NCBI RefSeq assembly: GCF_001717505.1
Contig: NZ_CP017037.1
Span: 659,001-723,000 of the forward strand
Direction: 5' to 3'
Origin: Dialister pneumosintes
Lineage (GTDB): Bacteria > Bacillota > Negativicutes > Veillonellales > Dialisteraceae
Length of the DNA: 64,000 nucleotides
Shown here: positions 15,193-59,976 of the stretch, one piece after another
How positions within the stretch are numbered: the stretch's first letter is position 1
Layout: each line of letters begins with the position of its first letter
Translations under genes and position numbers: made by a program
Notes under the pieces: model-generated
What the model saw: the letters and a program-made list of their open reading frames with translations, nothing else
Databases searched by the model: none
Told to the model about the DNA's origin: nothing

Positions 15193-16368
15193 TCATCCGG
15201 TAATTAAAAATCGTGCCGATTTTTTCAGCTTAGTCAAAGCTTTTCCTTCTATTTGACGTATTCTTTCTCGAGTAACCGCAAAATATTTTCCTACTTCCTC
15301 TAAAGTACGTGTTTTCCCATCCCTAAGACCAAAGCGAAGTTCCAATACTTGCCGCTCTCTATCTGTTAACAAATTGAGCAATTCATCAATTTGTTCTCGT
15401 AATAAAATAGAACCTGCCGCTTCATCCGGAGCAATGGCATCATGATCTTCAATAAAGTCACCTAAATGAGAATCTTCTTTTTCTCCAATAGGTGTTTCTA
15501 AAGAAATGGGATCTTGTGCAATCTTTTTTACCTCTATAACTTTAGCCGGTGTTACTCCCATAGCTTCTGCTAATTCTTCATTAGTAGCATCTCGACCTTT
15601 TTCCTGTAATAGTTGACGTGAAATTCGATTTAATTTATTGATAGTTTCCACCATATGAACAGGTACGCGAATGGTACGAGCTTGATCTGCGATAGCTCGA
15701 GTAATCGCTTGACGAATCCACCAAGTTGCATATGTACTGAACTTATAACCTTTTGTGTAGTCAAACTTGTCGACAGCTTTCAATAACCCCAGATTTCCTT
15801 CTTGAATCAAATCTAAAAATTGGAGTCCTCGCCCTAAATACTTCTTAGCGATAGATACTACAAGTCTTAAATTAGCATCTGATAATGCTTTTTTTGCTCG
15901 TTCACCTTCTAAAACTTCTTCTGTAGTTGCCTTTTCATCTAAACCGGCTTCAATAGCTTTTGCTAAAATAACTTCTTCTTCTGCTGTCAACAAACTAACA
16001 GTTCCTATTTCTTTTAAATACATTTTTACAGGATCATCAATGCCAACAGATTCAGTAATATTGCTAATAATCTTTCGAGCCATCCTAACAGGTTGAGAGT
16101 CTTTTACCCGTTCATCCGATAAATGCAGTTCTTCTTCTAAATCTGTAGGAATTAAAGCATTCCCCTCTATTCCCACCGCATCTTCATCAAAAGTAATTTC
16201 TACCCCCTCTTCATGAAGCTCTTCATAAATGGTAGATATTTGCTTTGCCTCTAATTGATATGTTTCTGCAAATTTCATAATATCCTTATTTGAGATAGAA
16301 GACTCCCTTACATCTTCATCAATTAATTTATCTACTAATAATTTTACATTTTTTATTTTATTCCCCAT
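15193..16368 (-). CDS. rpoD: Primary RNA polymerase sigma factor (sigma-A/sigma-70)
   Basis: 391 residues, in the size range of Firmicute SigA. A short region 1 is followed by region 1.2 ([18 protein letters not shown]), regions 2.1-2.4 ([39 protein letters not shown]), region 3 ([13 protein letters not shown]) and region 4 with the -35 reading helix ([19 protein letters not shown]). It directs transcription of housekeeping genes; the TTGACA/TATAAT promoters in this window fit it. It follows dnaG by 38 bases with GGAGG upstream, the classical dnaG-rpoD operon. Confidence 0.98.
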
Positions 16369-30697: not shown

Positions 30698-32722
30698 TTA
30701 GAACTGTGCACCAAAGCTAAAATGGAACTTATTGCGGTCTCCATGACCATAATCAAGTCTAACCGGACCGATTGGCGTTTGCAAACGGAGACCTACACCA
30801 ACAGATGCATGAATGGAGTTATCATCCTTATACCAAGGCATCTTGCCTTCCTGAATATCCCATGCACTACCTACATCTGTAAATAATACAGCTTCCACTT
30901 TTTTACTTACAGGCACACGATATTCTAATGTAGCTTCATACATTTTACGTCCTTTGAACTGGTCATCTTCATATCCACGAAGTGAATCTGAACCACCTAA
31001 ATCAAATAAATTATTATAGGAAATGTTACCATTCACATATCCTGCCATTACACGTAATGCTAATACATGTCCATTACTTAATGCCCTATAAAAACGACCT
31101 TCTGCAGTAAATTTATAATAATCATAATTACCACCGAGACCATGTCCTCCAACTTCTGCAGAGAAGGATAGTCTACGCCCTTTGGTTGCATTGTAGTAAT
31201 TATCTCGATTATCAAAAACATGCGTATAGGTAAAACTATTGGTACGCCCAAAGTTTTCCATAATCTTTTTATACCAATCAGATTGTGTATAATCGGCAAT
31301 ATTATTATCTTTTAAATATTTCAACATAACGGATCCGGGTTTAAATCCATTTCTGTTATCATAAGATTCTCTAACGGTTTGGAAATCAAAACGATGTGTA
31401 CGATATTCCCCGCTAACATGTCCCCAACTAATGTTGAAACCTTTCTTTCTCTTATCGTATTCAGCAATAGTATGTCCGTCAGAATCATAATCATCATAAC
31501 TATAACGACGATCAAAGACAGATACACCTAAAGAATCTCCATTATCATTTATATATGGATGCGTATAAGAGAGTTCATAATTTTTCCCTTTAGAAGAACC
31601 ACCAAATTCCCAATGGAGATTTACTTTATCACCTGTTCCACGGAAATTATTTTCACCAAGTTCCAAGATTCCCACCATTCCATCAGAATGAGAGTATCCT
31701 GCCCCAACAGTTACAACACCTGTTTTCTGTTCTATTACATCAATTTCTACTATTACATTGTGATCATTAACATCACTTGGAAGCAATCGCATATTAACAT
31801 CTTCAAAGAAGCCTAAGTTATAAAGGCGTTCTATACTTCGACTTGCTAAATATTTGTTAAACGGTTTTCCTTTCTTCAGTCTAAGTTCCCTAAGGATTAC
31901 CTTATCCTTGGTCTTTTCATTACCAATAAGTTGGATATCTTCAACATTACCTTCCGCAATTTTAACTCTAAGCGTTCCATCTTCTGTAACTGTAATATCA
32001 TTAATAGAAACTAAAATATATCCTTGCTGTAAATAAAGATTTTCAATTTCTTTTACATGTTGAGATACTAATGCAAAATTTAAAACACTATCTGACGGAA
32101 TTTGCATAATAGATTCTAACTCTGCATTAGAAAAAACTGTATTACCTTCAAAATCCACCTTATGAATAATTGGATTAGATACCATAACAAAAGTCAAGTC
32201 CATTCCTTCAGGAACTGCTTTAAACATAGGAGAAATCTGTGAGAAAACTCCTGTGCCACCTAATGCAGCTATATCCTTATGAATAGATTCCATCGATATA
32301 GAATCTCCAATCTTTTCTGTCACTAAAGGTAATAATTGTGCTTTTACCTCTTCAGGCACCCCTGAAAAATCAATGGAAGTCAATTTTTGTCCGACAGCTT
32401 TGGCAATCTCTTCGTTATCGGAAGGTGCTAGATACATAGAAGCATCACCTACGGAAGATGAATTTGTCATACCTTGAATGCTTCTATCCATTATGCCGGA
32501 ATTAGTTTCTTCAGTAAAAGATTCCATCGACATGTCTATACTTTCAGGAACTGTAACAGAAACCGGTTCTGTTTCTGTTAACATACTTTCCATTTCTCCA
32601 CGGTTAACATTAAACATTTGGCTTTCTGTTACATGAGAACCATTAGCTGCATAAACATTAAATCCAGTAAGCGACATTACGATAGCAGACGCTAATAATG
32701 TTTTCTTATACTGTATAGTCAT
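30698..32722 (-). CDS. bamA: Outer-membrane protein assembly factor BamA
   Basis: 674 residues from the ATG at 32722, which has AGGAGG upstream and a signal peptide (KKTLLASAIVMSLTGFNVYA). A Ser/Glu-rich linker is followed by POTRA domains (HKVDFEGNTVFSNAELESIM; VEDIQLIGNEKTKDKVILREL; GVVTVGAGYSH begins the barrel). The C-terminal 16-strand barrel contains the SLRGYEDDQFKGRKM segment (the VRGF/Y motif of loop 6) and ends in Phe (FHFSFGAQF). It inserts outer-membrane proteins. It has fewer POTRA repeats than the five of E. coli (I see three). It is followed by barrel-like, OmpH and lpxD genes. Confidence 0.96.
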   Translation of the reverse strand: MTIQYKKTLLASAIVMSLTGFNVYAANGSHVTESQMFNVNRGEMESMLTETEPVSVTVPESIDMSMESFTEETNSGIMDRSIQGMTNSSSVGDASMYLAPSDNEEIAKAVGQKLTSIDFSGVPEEVKAQLLPLVTEKIGDSISMESIHKDIAALGGTGVFSQISPMFKAVPEGMDLTFVMVSNPIIHKVDFEGNTVFSNAELESIMQIPSDSVLNFALVSQHVKEIENLYLQQGYILVSINDITVTEDGTLRVKIAEGNVEDIQLIGNEKTKDKVILRELRLKKGKPFNKYLASRSIERLYNLGFFEDVNMRLLPSDVNDHNVIVEIDVIEQKTGVVTVGAGYSHSDGMVGILELGENNFRGTGDKVNLHWEFGGSSKGKNYELSYTHPYINDNGDSLGVSVFDRRYSYDDYDSDGHTIAEYDKRKKGFNISWGHVSGEYRTHRFDFQTVRESYDNRNGFKPGSVMLKYLKDNNIADYTQSDWYKKIMENFGRTNSFTYTHVFDNRDNYYNATKGRRLSFSAEVGGHGLGGNYDYYKFTAEGRFYRALSNGHVLALRVMAGYVNGNISYNNLFDLGGSDSLRGYEDDQFKGRKMYEATLEYRVPVSKKVEAVLFTDVGSAWDIQEGKMPWYKDDNSIHASVGVGLRLQTPIGPVRLDYGHGDRNKFHFSFGAQF

Positions 32723-32771: not shown

Positions 32772-33341
32772 TTACTGACCGCGCAATGCACGTCCAGCTT
32801 CACCAACAACGCTTTGTATTTCCCTTGCACTCATTATAGAGTTTGATTCTATCATATGTTCGGATGCTATTGACATATGATTTTCTATGCTTTCTTCATA
32901 ACCTTGACTATTTATTGCTATTTCAGATGCTTCTACCGAATTAAGTTCTGACTTTGGTAATTGAGTATCTGCGTAATCTATATTTTCTTGTTTCACTATA
33001 TCTGAAGATGTAGTGATACTAATTCCTTTAGCAGTATCAACTAAAAATTGAGACTCTACTTCAGAATTATCCTTTCGAATATTATCTGAAGTTACATTTA
33101 TACCCTTGTGAAAAAAAGAGCCACCTATAAATATAGTTATTGCTATTATAAAGGTTCCTGTTCGAATACACCATTTTTTAGTATTTGCCCATTTATGAAC
33201 CTCATCTAGCCGTTGTATTTCTGCTCGAGCCATAATTAAATTAAGCTCTCCTGATAAATTTTTTTGGCTGGAAAATGATTTTTCTGCTTTTTCTAGCCAC
33301 TTACGAATAGCTCTCACCCGACTTATTTTATCTCCAGGCAT
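32772..33341 (-). CDS. Single-pass membrane protein, possible anti-sigma factor
   Basis: 189 residues with three parts: a basic N-terminal cytoplasmic region (residues 1-59, KISRVRAIRKWLEKAEKS), one hydrophobic helix (~60-78, TGTFIIAITIFIGGSFF) and an acidic, Ser-rich extracytoplasmic tail of ~110 residues. No family is recognised and no zinc motif is visible in the N-terminus. It lies directly downstream of an alternative sigma factor gene, and its N-in/C-out topology is that of transmembrane anti-sigma factors; this role is inference. It precedes bamA by 49 bases. Confidence 0.75.
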   Translation of the reverse strand: MPGDKISRVRAIRKWLEKAEKSFSSQKNLSGELNLIMARAEIQRLDEVHKWANTKKWCIRTGTFIIAITIFIGGSFFHKGINVTSDNIRKDNSEVESQFLVDTAKGISITTSSDIVKQENIDYADTQLPKSELNSVEASEIAINSQGYEESIENHMSIASEHMIESNSIMSAREIQSVVGEAGRALRGQ

Positions 33342-33449
33342 AGGAATTCCTCCTTTTTAAAATAATCGGATATCTATTATATAAAGTAAACCATCAAACA
33401 TTGATGAAATCTTGATTTATCTATCATTTTCTTCATTTATCTTCTATAT

Positions 33450-34088
33450 TCACTTATTTTCAAGCCACTTCCTCTCGTGCATAAGCTTGGAAAGTATCCC
33501 TCTTAAACGCCGAATCCCTTTCTTTTCAAGCTGATATACATAAGTTGCGCTTACATCCATTATATTTGCAGTTTCCAACGCAGATTTTTCCTGGTAATAC
33601 ACATTTTGTATTACATCTTTTTCTCTTTTAGGTAATCTTTCAAATGCTTGCTCAATAGCTTTATTAAGTTCTCTTCTATCAGCACATTCAAAAGCTACAT
33701 CAGGAACCATTTTATTAAAAAGCGGATTCTGTATTTGTTCATCTTGTTGATCAAAAAGAAGTTCTTTCTGTGCAATTCTAAGAAAATCAATCATTCTACC
33801 ACGCACTCTATGCAGTGCATATAAAGAGAATGCCACACCTGAAGTATGATTATATCGTTCAGCTGCTTCCATAAGCCCTACTACACCTTCTTGAATTAAA
33901 TCAAGAATTAAAGTCTCTTGTAGTTGATACTTTAGTGCCTCTTTAAACACTAAGAGTTGATAATGCTCAATTAACTCTTGTCTCGCTTCTATTTGTCCCT
34001 CTATTTTAAATTTATGCCACAATAAAGATTCTTCTTGTTGTGTAAGTTTATTAAGCCCTTTTAGAGACTGTATATACTCCGCAAGCAT
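33450..34088 (-). CDS. Alternative sigma factor of the sigma-70 family (group 3-like)
   Basis: 212 residues. Region 2 is clear: LVFKEALKYQLQETLILDLI, EGVVGLMEAAERYNHTSGVA and FSLYALHRVRGRMIDFLR. Region 4 is clear: FERLPKREKDVIQNVYYQEK followed by SALETANIMDVSATYVYQLE, a helix-turn-helix. Region 1 is absent and region 3 is short, so it resembles SigF/FliA-type regulators, not the primary sigma factor at 15 kb. No flagellar or spore genes are near. It lies between tamB and a membrane protein gene, in the middle of the outer-membrane cluster, so it probably controls envelope genes (inference). The start lies 9 bases from the tamB stop. Confidence 0.88.
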   Translation of the reverse strand: MLAEYIQSLKGLNKLTQQEESLLWHKFKIEGQIEARQELIEHYQLLVFKEALKYQLQETLILDLIQEGVVGLMEAAERYNHTSGVAFSLYALHRVRGRMIDFLRIAQKELLFDQQDEQIQNPLFNKMVPDVAFECADRRELNKAIEQAFERLPKREKDVIQNVYYQEKSALETANIMDVSATYVYQLEKKGIRRLRGILSKLMHERKWLENK

Positions 34089-34097
34089 ATGACTCTC

Positions 34098-37000
34098 CTA
34101 AAAATTAAATTTCCAATCAGCACCAATATATGTATCGTGGTTACTATTATACCATGCTGATATACCGACACGTGATTTTAAGTCGTAGTGAAATCCAACG
34201 CTCTTCTGCTCATTATTAATACCGGTAGTTGCCATTAACATAAAATCATTAAACAAATATTTTCCAATCTTAATATAGTAGTAATTATTATGTTGTGCAG
34301 CAACGCCTTCATAACCATCCATTAAACTTGACGTGATATTTATATAATCCAACCCTACTAACTCTTTCACATAAGTTTGTACACCACTGCTATTAAATAC
34401 CATTTGCAAACCGGCATTAAACAGAGCATTTTGTAAGCCCTCTTCATTTTTTCCTAATAAATCAGTATTCGTAGTAAGTAGCATTACAATTTGTGAATCA
34501 TTAAGTATCGGTTCACTTGAAAGTTCAAATTTAAAATCTCCCGGCACACCATTTAATTTCATTGCAATTTTATAGTTGCTCACTTTACTATTTGCTTTAA
34601 GATGTACTACCGGAAGTAGTGATTCTGATGCACCACCCCAAATAGCATATCCCTCTGATACATTAAAAACATTCGATAAATAATGAATATTCCCCTGTAG
34701 AATATCTACACGCCCTGTTGTAATCGGTTCTGATAACAGTCCGTCAATCTTAATATTCCCTTTAATTACCAAATCATAAATTAAACTATTATATAACTTG
34801 ACTTTATCACCAATAGTAATATCAATTTGTGCTGCAAGAGGAATTGAATTATCATCGGACTCTAAAGAAAGAGGAACATCTATAGTTGCATCATGGATTA
34901 TGATGTTTCCTTTTAACTCAGGTGTGCCATACAAGTCCTCAACAGTAAAATCAGCATCACAGGCTCCAGTATAATAAACAGATTTTATAGAAGGAGCATG
35001 CAAATGTGCTTCCCCATTATAAGTAATAATTTTTCCTTTATTCCATCCAATAGTACCTTTCGCAGAAGTAACTCCTTCTCCGACATCCGCATTAACATTA
35101 ACATTCATTGATTTTCCATTAAAGTCAATAGCTCCATTAATACCGGATAATGGTTCCTTCATCGTTTGTAAAATGATATTGCCATTTTTAACAATAATAT
35201 TCCCTGTTAATAAAGGATCGTCCCAATCTCCAGTTACTTTTAACTGTCCATGAATAGGTCCTTCTGCTTGTGCCACAGACTTACTTAACATAGCAAGCAA
35301 ATTAAGATCGGCATGATCTAAGTTAAAAGATAAATTAAATGGAATGTTACTAGATAGATTTTTACGAGTAATAAAACTTATCGGCATAGAACCGGAAACA
35401 GATGCTTTATAAGGCCCTTTAGTTGCTAAGCCTTGATTAATAAATATCTTTCCATCTGCAACTGTTCCCATAATAAACAGCTTATCAAAATCAGTTCCGT
35501 CATAGGATGGATTATCTATCCCGATAGATACTTCTGCATTCGGTTTATCTACTGTTCCATTAACCTTTACCCCGGCAGTTAAATGTCCTTTAACAAAAGT
35601 ATCGGTTTTTCCGACTATTCTAGGAATCCATGAAATATCCATATCTTTAGCTGCCACTTGAATATCAAGTTCCCCATCCGGCGTAGAAAATCCTTTGGCT
35701 GCCAACAAACCACTTCCAACCGGTATTCTAAAGGATCGTATCATTAATGCTTTATTTTTATAAGATAAATCAATCTTCCCTTCAGAGATTAAAGTTTCTC
35801 CTACTTGCCCCCTAACTATATTTGCTAATAAATCCACATTTAAGTTATTAATATCTCCACTTAAATGCATATTACCATTTACGATACCTGACACTTCATA
35901 CAACGATACTTGCATAAACTTAGCAATTTCAGATATATCCCATTCTGAAAATTGTAGCACCCCATTAATAACCCCCGACTCGATATTTATACTTCCTTTC
36001 CATGTAAAGCTTCCTGTTCCTTGTTGAAAAATCCCCTGATTCACAAATAAAACCTGATTGAAATACTCCACTTGCGCAGATAAATGTTTCATATAAGCAT
36101 CACCAATTTTCAGCTGCTCACTTTCAACAGTTCCAATAAAACGAGGAGATGTTATATTTCCACTTACATGCCCATGCAGTGTAACTTTTCCATCTACACT
36201 GTCCTTCTGTAAAATACGCCTTACATCTACATTGGTTAAATTAACTTCTAGATCCAATGCATCGGAAGAAATATTTCCATGTAACAATATATTGCTATCA
36301 TATATATTTCCCATACCGTTATTTAAAGATAATTGTCCATTTTTATAACTATAATGAGTAGAAAAACTTTGAAATAATTCTCCCATCACAGAACCATTTC
36401 GTGCAACAATATCTCCATCAATTATAGGCATATCTATTGTTCCGGTAATCGTCATATCATTATCGACCCACCCGGTTACTTCATAAGGTAAATTACCCGC
36501 TTTTAAAATATTTTCAATACGTATATTACTGCTGTTAATTTGCAAATTTAACTTTTTTTCATTTTTTAGTCCAATAGCACCGGTAACAACGTGCATACCT
36601 TTATTATCTTTCCAATGAATAGAATCAAAAATGATTTCATCAGAAGTCATTAAAAGATTTCCTTGAATCACATTATAAGGTACCCCATGTATTTCTCCAT
36701 CAGTAGCATATACACGACCGCTAAGTACAGGATGTTCTAAATTACCATTAAGAGTGCCTTTAAAAGCCCCTGCTCCGGACATATTTATACCAACCAGAGA
36801 GGAAAACGGTTCTAAGTCTATATTTACAACATGTGTATTTAAATCCATATGCGAGGTTGAATAAACGCCATCCACATGAACGCTCCCTGCGCCACTTCTT
36901 CCATCTAAAGAAGAAATATAATAATTATCTCCTAATTTACTGATAGTAGCAGTTAAAGAATTTAAAAGCAGATCTTTATAAGATATATTGCTAGAGGATA

Positions 37001-38456
37001 TTATCATATATCCATCCTGTTCATTATAAGAAAACTTACTTGAAACAGCTTGGGCTCTAATTCCGAACCCTCTAATATTTTCACCTTGTATATCTCCATT
37101 GGCAGATAAAAGATGTATCGTGTCCGTATAATTCCCTTGTAAAGAAATTTGTCCTGTAACTATCCCTTCTATACCTATAGATTTTACAATATTTTTTAAA
37201 TCTGCTTGCTTTGCATATGCATCAATAGTAAAAGTATTATCTGTACTATGATAAAGAGCATTCCCTACAATGTAACCATTACCGGTATATAGTTCCCCGG
37301 AAATCACTTGAAAGTTTTCTCCATCCCAAGAAAATCCCCCTCGTACTTCATCTGCAATATTTTCTCCTACCCCAACTTTTTTTCCATAAACCATTCCGGT
37401 CGCAGTAGTTTTTCCGTCAAAATAGGACACATGAATATCTCCAGATAAATTTCCTGTTAAAGTTTCATTTATAAATAAATCAGAAATATTTGTATGATTC
37501 AAGTGAAAATCACCATATAAACTTGTTTCTTTAATCCAATCTGCAGAAAATGTACCTGTAATCCATTGTCCATTAACTTTAGCGGCTAATTTTTTTACAT
37601 AAATGCTATTATTATACAAATTAAAATCACAGCTACCATTAGATATATGATAACTCTTATAATCTGCTAAAACATTTTGTAAAGCACCCTCCAAATGATA
37701 TGTAAGTACTCCATTTTTACACCAAAAAGAACTGGTTTGCAAATGAAGTTCCCCATCTACATTTTTAATATCTTTCAATGATTCAGGAAGTGCAATTCCT
37801 ATATTTTCTAACAACTTTATAGAAAACTTTCCTTGAGAAAATTTTCCTTTAAAGTCTTTATCATCATAATAATAAAAATCTCCTACTAAGTTTTCCTTGT
37901 TATAAAGAAAACTTACTGCTCCATGAATTGCCTGTTCATCATCCCAATAAAGCTGACCATTTACATTTTCAGTATAAATTTCAACATTATTAACAGTAGC
38001 TAAAACACGTCCACCTTTTATAATTACCCGCCCATAAAAAGAAGCTCTTTGTTCGTTATCATCAGTTTTAATAAGATTTTTGAAATTCCATTCTTGTTCT
38101 TTAACTATTATGAAAGTAGGTTGTTCAAGAATGACTTTAGTAATAGCTCCCAGTTTATTTCCATTATCAAAAAAAGAGCGCATTAAAGCACATATAGACC
38201 ATTCTACAGTTAATTCAGGCAACTTTAATACATCTCTGCCATAGATATCCTTTAATTCTATCTCTCTCAATCGAATATTATAGCTTGGAGTAAGTTCTAT
38301 TTCTTTCCAAGAAAGTTGTCCATTAATTTTTTCTTGTACGACAGTTTCTGCTGCATTGTTGACAGCCGGTACAAACCAAAAACGTGCCAACACTGTAGCT
38401 ATCAGGAGCAACAATACAAAAATAGCTCCTAATACACCCCATCGCTTAGTCCACAT
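34098..38456 (-). CDS. tamB: Translocation and assembly module protein TamB
   Basis: 1452 residues from the ATG at 38456 (GTGAGG upstream). An N-terminal membrane anchor (WGVLGAIFVLLLLIATVLARF) is followed by a very long run of amphipathic beta strands, the AsmA/TamB lipid-groove architecture, and a C-terminal TamB (DUF490) domain with GRVDILQGNIHYLSNVF, FELSSEPILNDSQIVMLL and a barrel-like end (GISAWYNSNHDTYIGADWKF). TamB-like proteins span the periplasm and are implicated in lipid transfer to the outer membrane. No TamA is seen here; BamA may be the partner, as proposed in other diderms. It is downstream of tolC and mla genes. Confidence 0.92.
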   Translation of the reverse strand: MWTKRWGVLGAIFVLLLLIATVLARFWFVPAVNNAAETVVQEKINGQLSWKEIELTPSYNIRLREIELKDIYGRDVLKLPELTVEWSICALMRSFFDNGNKLGAITKVILEQPTFIIVKEQEWNFKNLIKTDDNEQRASFYGRVIIKGGRVLATVNNVEIYTENVNGQLYWDDEQAIHGAVSFLYNKENLVGDFYYYDDKDFKGKFSQGKFSIKLLENIGIALPESLKDIKNVDGELHLQTSSFWCKNGVLTYHLEGALQNVLADYKSYHISNGSCDFNLYNNSIYVKKLAAKVNGQWITGTFSADWIKETSLYGDFHLNHTNISDLFINETLTGNLSGDIHVSYFDGKTTATGMVYGKKVGVGENIADEVRGGFSWDGENFQVISGELYTGNGYIVGNALYHSTDNTFTIDAYAKQADLKNIVKSIGIEGIVTGQISLQGNYTDTIHLLSANGDIQGENIRGFGIRAQAVSSKFSYNEQDGYMIISSSNISYKDLLLNSLTATISKLGDNYYISSLDGRSGAGSVHVDGVYSTSHMDLNTHVVNIDLEPFSSLVGINMSGAGAFKGTLNGNLEHPVLSGRVYATDGEIHGVPYNVIQGNLLMTSDEIIFDSIHWKDNKGMHVVTGAIGLKNEKKLNLQINSSNIRIENILKAGNLPYEVTGWVDNDMTITGTIDMPIIDGDIVARNGSVMGELFQSFSTHYSYKNGQLSLNNGMGNIYDSNILLHGNISSDALDLEVNLTNVDVRRILQKDSVDGKVTLHGHVSGNITSPRFIGTVESEQLKIGDAYMKHLSAQVEYFNQVLFVNQGIFQQGTGSFTWKGSINIESGVINGVLQFSEWDISEIAKFMQVSLYEVSGIVNGNMHLSGDINNLNVDLLANIVRGQVGETLISEGKIDLSYKNKALMIRSFRIPVGSGLLAAKGFSTPDGELDIQVAAKDMDISWIPRIVGKTDTFVKGHLTAGVKVNGTVDKPNAEVSIGIDNPSYDGTDFDKLFIMGTVADGKIFINQGLATKGPYKASVSGSMPISFITRKNLSSNIPFNLSFNLDHADLNLLAMLSKSVAQAEGPIHGQLKVTGDWDDPLLTGNIIVKNGNIILQTMKEPLSGINGAIDFNGKSMNVNVNADVGEGVTSAKGTIGWNKGKIITYNGEAHLHAPSIKSVYYTGACDADFTVEDLYGTPELKGNIIIHDATIDVPLSLESDDNSIPLAAQIDITIGDKVKLYNSLIYDLVIKGNIKIDGLLSEPITTGRVDILQGNIHYLSNVFNVSEGYAIWGGASESLLPVVHLKANSKVSNYKIAMKLNGVPGDFKFELSSEPILNDSQIVMLLTTNTDLLGKNEEGLQNALFNAGLQMVFNSSGVQTYVKELVGLDYINITSSLMDGYEGVAAQHNNYYYIKIGKYLFNDFMLMATTGINNEQKSVGFHYDLKSRVGISAWYNSNHDTYIGADWKFNF

Positions 38457-38492
38457 GTGCCTCACTTATAAGCGCTCCCACTTACTATAATT

Positions 38493-58953: not shown

Positions 58954-59976
58954 CTATTTAAATAGTGCAGTTATGTCATTTATAGTTGCATAAAGAAAAA
59001 GACCACCTAAAATAAATATCCCGGTACATTGAATATAGAATAACACTTTATTAGGTAACGGTTTTCTACAAATACCTTCTAATATAGTCAATAAAAGCAA
59101 ACCGCCATCCAATAACGGAATGGGTAATAAATTTAAAAAGCCAAGGTTTAAACTTAATATCGCAACAAACATTAATAAAGGTATCATACCATGATTAGCT
59201 ATAGTTCCCGCTAATCTTGCAACACCGATAGGCCCTGCCACTTGAGCGGTATTATTTCCTAAGATCATAGAAGATAAGCCTTCCCCTATAGCAATAAAAT
59301 CCTTAATACATTTCTCAAAACCCAATTGTATCGCTTGACTTAATGTAACAGATTGTTTCTCCAATTGTGGAGAAATCCCTAAAACTGCTCGTTCATCTCG
59401 TATTTCCGGAATAATTGTTATTGCTTTTTCTATGCCATCTCTTACAATGAATATTTCCAAAACTGTATTTTCTTTTCCCTGCAATATTCCTAATATATCT
59501 GACCATTTAGCAATCTTATGGTTATCTATAGAAGTAATAACATCACCCACTTGTAATCCTGATTTTAAAGCAGGCGAATCCGTTGCTATGGCACCAATAA
59601 TAGGCTTATCAGGAAATGTTTCAACCCCTGTAGACCAAATAATTCCTGAAAAAATAATAAAAGCTAATGCAATATTACAAATAGCCCCCGCACTAATAAC
59701 TAATAAGCGTTGCCACACCTGTCGGTTCGAAAAAGCTCTTGGGTCTTCTGTATATTCTCGATCCATTCCCATAATTTTATTAAACCCGCCCAAAGGAAAG
59801 ATTCGAAAAGAATACAAAGTTTCTCCTTTTTTGATTGACCAAAGTACAGGACCAAAACCTACAGCAAATTCTTCTACCTTCATGCCTGTCAACTTTGCAG
59901 TTATAAAATGACCCCATTCATGTACAATCACTATAACAGCAAATACAATAATGGGTGCAATAAATGTATATATCAT
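58954..59976 (-). CDS. rseP: RseP-type site-2 intramembrane metalloprotease
   Basis: 340 residues, polytopic. The zinc site HExxH is VIVHEWGHFITAKLTGMKV and the third ligand lies in LNLLPIPLLDGGLLLLTIL (N-x2-P-x-P-x-L-D-G). One PDZ domain is between (~120-205, GLQVGDVITSIDNHKIAKW). In other bacteria it cleaves membrane anti-sigma factors to release envelope-stress sigma factors, and clears signal peptides. This is relevant because a sigma factor and single-pass membrane protein are encoded at 33 kb. Its start overlaps the dxr stop by 4 bases. Confidence 0.96.
   Translation of the reverse strand: MIYTFIAPIIVFAVIVIVHEWGHFITAKLTGMKVEEFAVGFGPVLWSIKKGETLYSFRIFPLGGFNKIMGMDREYTEDPRAFSNRQVWQRLLVISAGAICNIALAFIIFSGIIWSTGVETFPDKPIIGAIATDSPALKSGLQVGDVITSIDNHKIAKWSDILGILQGKENTVLEIFIVRDGIEKAITIIPEIRDERAVLGISPQLEKQSVTLSQAIQLGFEKCIKDFIAIGEGLSSMILGNNTAQVAGPIGVARLAGTIANHGMIPLLMFVAILSLNLGFLNLLPIPLLDGGLLLLTILEGICRKPLPNKVLFYIQCTGIFILGGLFLYATINDITALFK

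Follow-up and report, generated by a model that had tools for sequence, protein, structure and literature searches.

Background

The alternative sigma factor RpoE (sigma-E) of Escherichia coli is paired with RseA, a single-pass inner-membrane protein of N-in/C-out topology, and is released by proteolysis in a system that includes the protease RseP. In the FecI/FecR/FecA system a sigma factor, a single-pass regulator and an outer-membrane barrel are encoded together, and the regulon is narrow. Sigma factors of the FliA/WhiG type have regions 2, 3 and 4, with RsiG as the anti-sigma factor of WhiG; the ECF (group 4) sigma factors have regions 2 and 4 only, and an anti-sigma gene adjoins them.

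Here we describe a sigma factor and a membrane protein, referred to as the partner, that are encoded between tamB and bamA in Dialister pneumosintes. A diderm cluster with mla, tolC, tamB and bamA genes is already known (PMC5007114, PMC5491611, PMC10665443). In the open-access literature, to which our search was confined (subscription journals lay outside it), we found no paper on either the sigma factor or the partner, and the sigma factor goes unmentioned in the main text of Antunes et al. 2016 (PMC5007114).

Organisation of the locus

The window analysed is a stretch of 64,000 nucleotides from a genome of 1.27 Mb in one contig. The original prediction, made from the letters of this DNA, placed open reading frames for a sigma factor and a membrane protein between tamB and bamA and an rseP gene at 59 kb, and all three genes are found in the window:

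34098..38465, minus strand: tamB, the neighbour upstream of the sigma factor gene
33450..34088, minus strand: sigma factor gene, 212 aa, sigma-70 family; region 1.2-like N-terminus, region 2 (residues 38-106), a short linker without region 3, and region 4 (residues 147-195)
33362..33391, minus strand: promoter-like element GTTTACTTTATATAATAGATATCCGATTAT in the sigma-partner gap, with a -35-like GTTT and a -10-like GATTAT
32772..33341, minus strand: partner gene, 189 aa, probable membrane-anchored anti-sigma factor
30698..32722, minus strand: bamA, ATG start at 32722, directly downstream of the partner; predicted target operon
58954..59976, minus strand: RseP-type site-2 protease gene

The end of tamB (34098) lies 9 bp from the sigma factor ATG, the sigma-partner gap is 108 bp long, with the element ending 20 nt before the partner start codon, and about 50 bp separate the partner stop from the bamA start. 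The region-2 model matches four places in the genome, the sigma locus included. Two RpoD-like sigma genes are also present, at 15193-16368 of the window and at G000:C1:299002, with open frames of about 395 and 400 aa; two such genes are likewise seen in many relatives.

The sigma factor

Regions 2 and 4 score above their Pfam cut-offs (54.5 and 41.1 bits), and a Pfam search finds no region 3, even at E=10. The broad sigma-70/ECF model TIGR02937 is passed (94.9 bits against a cut-off of 42.9), whereas the second-ranked NCBIfam model, TIGR02479 (FliA_WhiG), gives 89.3 bits, under its cut-off of 189.6. In the PDB, the top matches are 6pfv and 6pfj, both listed as RNA polymerase sigma factor, which we take to be WhiG-RsiG complexes, and then FliA. 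Judged by these Pfam, NCBIfam and PDB matches, the protein is a FliA/WhiG relative without region 3. Its earlier description as group-3-like is therefore apt for regions 1.2, 2 and 4, which are closest to WhiG/FliA, and does not extend to region 3, which is missing. In one genome (G036:C2:30765-31393) the sigma orthologue is split across two frames, by a frameshift or an assembly error.

The partner protein

The partner has one hydrophobic segment, at about residues 59-78, and none of its 154 orthologues has a second at KD of at least 1.6. Because the N-terminal side is the more positive in 94% of these orthologues (mean +3.5 compared with -0.2 on the other side), a single-pass, N-in/C-out topology is predicted, in agreement with the single-pass protein with a basic cytoplasmic N-terminus and a periplasmic tail that had been expected at this position. 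The sequence comprises a conserved, helical cytoplasmic N-terminus (about residues 1-50; ..RSARxWLxxAExSF..RGELNLMLAQAEL..), a variable P/A/S/T-rich linker of about 83 residues, and a conserved C-terminal periplasmic helix (about residues 170-188; ..EMQxLxRxAGKSLRGQ). An AlphaFold prediction based on two sequences places helices at 4-25, 29-91 and 172-186 with modest confidence; at a mean pLDDT of 56 it is too weak for a fold search.

Neither Pfam, NCBIfam nor the PDB contains a relative of the partner, and its cytoplasmic domain matches none of their anti-sigma families (RseA, FecR, RsiG and others). It represents a protein family that has no Pfam or NCBIfam model and is probably a membrane-anchored anti-sigma factor of a new family. 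Coevolution between the two proteins was assessed by APC-corrected mutual information over 156 sigma-partner pairs, with within-clade shuffles as the control. The top z of 7.9 falls inside the shuffle range (mean 7.5, maximum 8.1), so no interface signal is seen beyond clade structure.

Conservation, synteny and joint loss

In a survey of 300 Negativicutes genomes, with a cut-off of E<1e-25 for sigma orthologues, the sigma factor is found in 233 and the partner in 238. Comparison of the two hit tables shows that all 233 sigma-positive genomes are also partner-positive, and the five genomes with the partner only have marginal E-values (2.8e-6 to 4.9e-4); these co-occurrence statistics ignore phylogeny. 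In a set of 40 relatives, 30 carry the sigma factor, and it is these 30 that carry the partner. The synteny survey across Negativicutes that the original prediction called for gives the order TamB-sigma-partner-BamA in 39 of 40 family-diverse loci. Only G147 departs from it, with a break inside the sigma-partner gap: the sigma gene has split off while the partner is still next to bamA. The arrangement of the pair is beyond chance, since both genes are conserved across the class, adjacent to each other and flanked by tamB and bamA.

In other classes, ten genomes yield a partner match with E below 1e-10. At eight of these loci the sigma factor, partner and BamA follow in order behind a TamB-sized gene, recognised as TamB itself in seven, and at one of the eight a 3-kb insertion separates sigma factor and partner. 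A scan of genome contigs with a single-sequence query returned only two loci. The best-conserved part of the partner outside the class is its cytoplasmic N-terminus. Since the pair is present in several classes of the phylum, it bears on the retention or loss of the outer membrane in Firmicutes.

In sigma-less genomes tamB is followed directly by bamA, as seen in the Dialister-like G005 and G009, a Veillonella-like genus, G193, G088 and G081. In V. parvula, Vpar_0526 (TamB) and Vpar_0527 (BamA) are adjacent by locus tags (PMC5491611); this name is taken from the paper, whereas the labels Dialister-like, Veillonella-like and Sporomusa-type are inferred. From these gene orders, the sigma factor and partner have been lost jointly in several lineages, that of the model organism Veillonella parvula included, and such repeated joint loss provides natural comparisons. 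Computation thus supports the view that the sigma factor and the partner are a single evolutionary unit, linked to the outer-membrane cluster.

A promoter-like element ahead of the partner

Motif discovery in 64 gaps upstream of the partner yields GAYTATAT, with a log-likelihood of 173 compared with 27±4 for shuffles. Its A and T are invariant at the positions where -10 elements of the sigma-70 family require them, and its first position is G. Together with a G[TA][TC] located 23-24 nt upstream, GAYTAT makes up a bipartite, promoter-like element with a spacer of about 20 nt. The median score in 76 held-out gaps, many of which come from related species, is 12.1 against 1.9 for shuffles; 46 of them (61%) score at least 10, as do 2% of shuffles, and about 40% fall below 10. 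Outside the class the element is not clear, and at two loci there the gap spans just 15-24 bp.

The strict element is near-unique in each genome and shows no genome-wide enrichment, and is therefore no general promoter. Good matches to the Sporomusa-type motif are nearly all the sigma-partner gap itself. The motif search of the D. pneumosintes genome returns 39 matches. A tandem-repeat (CRISPR-like) array accounts for 20, and the remainder do not exceed the level of a reversed-pattern control, so that no large regulon is seen in this genome. The array itself (G000:C1:1086400-1087682, L070) lies outside the window and has a 66-bp period with the repeat GTTTGAGAGTGATGTAATTCACGAATAT.

Two further features lie within these gaps. 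The spacer of the D. pneumosintes element contains TATAAT, which might be usable by a housekeeping sigma factor. The sigma-partner gaps of many non-Veillonellales (L143, L123 and L126, for example) share a conserved GACCAGAATCTGGCC that holds a near-perfect palindrome, CCAGA-A-TCTGG, between the -35 and -10, possibly the site of a second regulator.

Promoter-like sequences in genomes without the sigma factor

The tamB-bamA gap of sigma-less genomes contains extended -10-like sequences, namely TGCTATAAT in the Veillonella-like genus, TGGTATAAT in G193 and TGCTAAAAT in G088, and a TATAAT in G081. By their sequence, those before bamA in several of these genomes are of the housekeeping -10 type. 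A Veillonellaceae-like genus that keeps the pair (f4 g8; L030, L031 and L032) has a GAATAT element and an extended -10, TGATATAAT, within one gap, perhaps an intermediate towards sigma loss.

lpxA as a second predicted target

A gene-blind strict search of 12 Dialister-like genomes finds the partner gap and, in three of them, also the region upstream of lpxA. A matrix trained on partner gaps recovers the lpxA element in 16 of 26 sigma-positive genomes, D. pneumosintes (L205) among them. It is present in many families, and is weak or absent in the sigma-positive G003, G007, G010, G025 and G085. The fabZ-lpxA gap of sigma-positive genomes is mostly 160-230 bp long (median 184 bp), compared with a median of 41 bp in 13 sigma-less genomes (Mann-Whitney p about 1e-6, phylogeny ignored; two of these lengths were adjusted by eye for a miscalled upstream ORF). 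No convincing intergenic element is left at fabZ-lpxA in those 13 genomes. One sigma-less Dialister-like genome carries two tandem lpxA copies (G009:C1:1851266-1853145).

When about 400 kb of cluster DNA and the window were scanned, the only recurrent intergenic sites were the partner gap and lpxA. The proposed link to the envelope is thus supported computationally for the target genes: promoters are predicted at partner-bamA and lpxA, in keeping with the response of bam and lpx genes that the original prediction suggested checking.

Proposed mechanism and alternative explanations

Computation shows that both genes are conserved, keep their gene order and are lost together, and that the promoter element exists and vanishes with the sigma factor. 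That this sigma factor recognises the element and is bound by the partner is inferred, as is the signal that is sensed. Because in diderm Firmicutes the pair is kept or lost together, along with a promoter at an outer-membrane protein gene and at lpxA, it has the look of a dedicated control circuit for outer-membrane construction. Our preferred reading, to which we give a probability of about two in three, is that of a dedicated outer-membrane-biogenesis sigma factor with a membrane-anchored regulator, driving partner-bamA and lpxA and restrained by the partner. The sigma factor would recognise the -35-like G[TA][TC] and the -10 GAYTAT, and would drive a transcription unit that starts at the partner and continues into bamA; lpxA, for the first step of lipid A synthesis, would also be sigma-driven in most genomes. 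The conserved cytoplasmic N-terminus of the partner would bind the sigma factor, and its periplasmic linker and C-terminal helix may report the state of outer-membrane assembly, for example BamA or TamB occupancy. Since the partner gene is downstream of this promoter, activating the sigma factor would increase its own inhibitor as well, a negative feedback loop. It is conjecture that the periplasmic C-terminus acts as a sensor and that RseP cleaves the partner.

How the sigma factor would be released is where a stress circuit like that of RpoE/RseA enters, as a sub-case of the preferred reading: assembly defects would lead to site-1 and then RseP cleavage of the partner. The predicted single-pass topology suits substrates of site-2 proteases, and rseP lies in the same region; its presence is weak evidence, however, because RseP is near-universal. 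No protease is specifically linked to the sigma-partner pair, and the conserved extreme C-terminus suits reversible docking as well as cleavage, so that we consider proteolytic release rather unlikely. The partner might instead be a structural or trans-envelope coupling protein that belongs to the TamB/BamA machinery and is carried along with the operon, with the sigma factor still driving outer-membrane promoters. Its linker and conserved periplasmic helix suggest a trans-envelope role, and in G147 it remains beside bamA after the sigma gene has split off; yet it disappears together with the sigma factor from genomes that retain tamB and bamA, and it is the cytoplasmic end that is best conserved outside the class, which makes this explanation improbable.

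Even less probable, in our judgement, is that the housekeeping sigma factor uses the element together with another DNA-binding regulator, acting for instance at CCAGA-A-TCTGG, while the sigma factor encoded here controls unrelated genes. Although the palindrome lies within the promoter in many genomes and the spacer of D. pneumosintes holds a TATAAT, the palindrome is absent in Veillonellales and at lpxA, loss of the sigma factor is accompanied by loss of the element at two separate loci, and bamA is then preceded by canonical -10-like sequences.

Returning to the dedicated sigma factor, we offer a broader interpretation, tentatively and at somewhat less than even odds. It may be an ancestral sigma factor of diderm Firmicutes that serves mainly for the routine control of outer-membrane construction, adjusting the supplies of BamA and lipid A jointly, while a trans-envelope inhibitor gauges assembly and provides the negative feedback; it would have been missed because the genetic model, V. 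parvula, lost it. If the dedicated circuit is real, the diderm-Firmicutes outer membrane is built under its own sigma factor, a single regulator linking protein assembly by BamA to lipopolysaccharide synthesis by LpxA. The two-promoter prediction is directly testable.

Comparison with known systems

Like RpoE/RseA, the D. pneumosintes pair would combine an alternative sigma factor with a single-pass inner-membrane protein of predicted N-in/C-out topology, and it shares outer-membrane biogenesis targets, here as predicted promoters. The partner is not homologous to RseA, however, and the sigma factor is closest to WhiG/FliA rather than RpoE; the genes lie inside the tamB-bamA operon, the recurrent predicted targets are only two operons, and proteolytic release is at most a conjecture here, suggested by the predicted topology and the presence of rseP. 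The likeness to FecI/FecR/FecA lies in the joint encoding of sigma factor, single-pass regulator and barrel and in the narrow regulon, but here the partner does not match the FecR family, BamA is the barrel, the promoter precedes the regulator gene, and lpxA is a second target.

For the ECF sigma factors the evidence points both ways: an architecture of regions 2 and 4 beside a putative anti-sigma gene would fit, and the broad TIGR02937 model is passed, but the N-terminus is region 1.2-like and the best relatives are in group 3. In sequence, regions 2 and 4 match FliA and WhiG best, although their family cut-off is not reached, region 3 is not found here, and the RsiG family is not matched by the partner. 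The promoters show a similar mixture. Compared with TAAA / GCCGATAA of FliA/WhiG, the flagellar consensus GCCGATAA being that of PMC8325347, the -35 G[TA][TC] differs and the -10 GAYTAT is partly similar, with the CCGATTAT of Dialister-like genomes resembling the flagellar -10.
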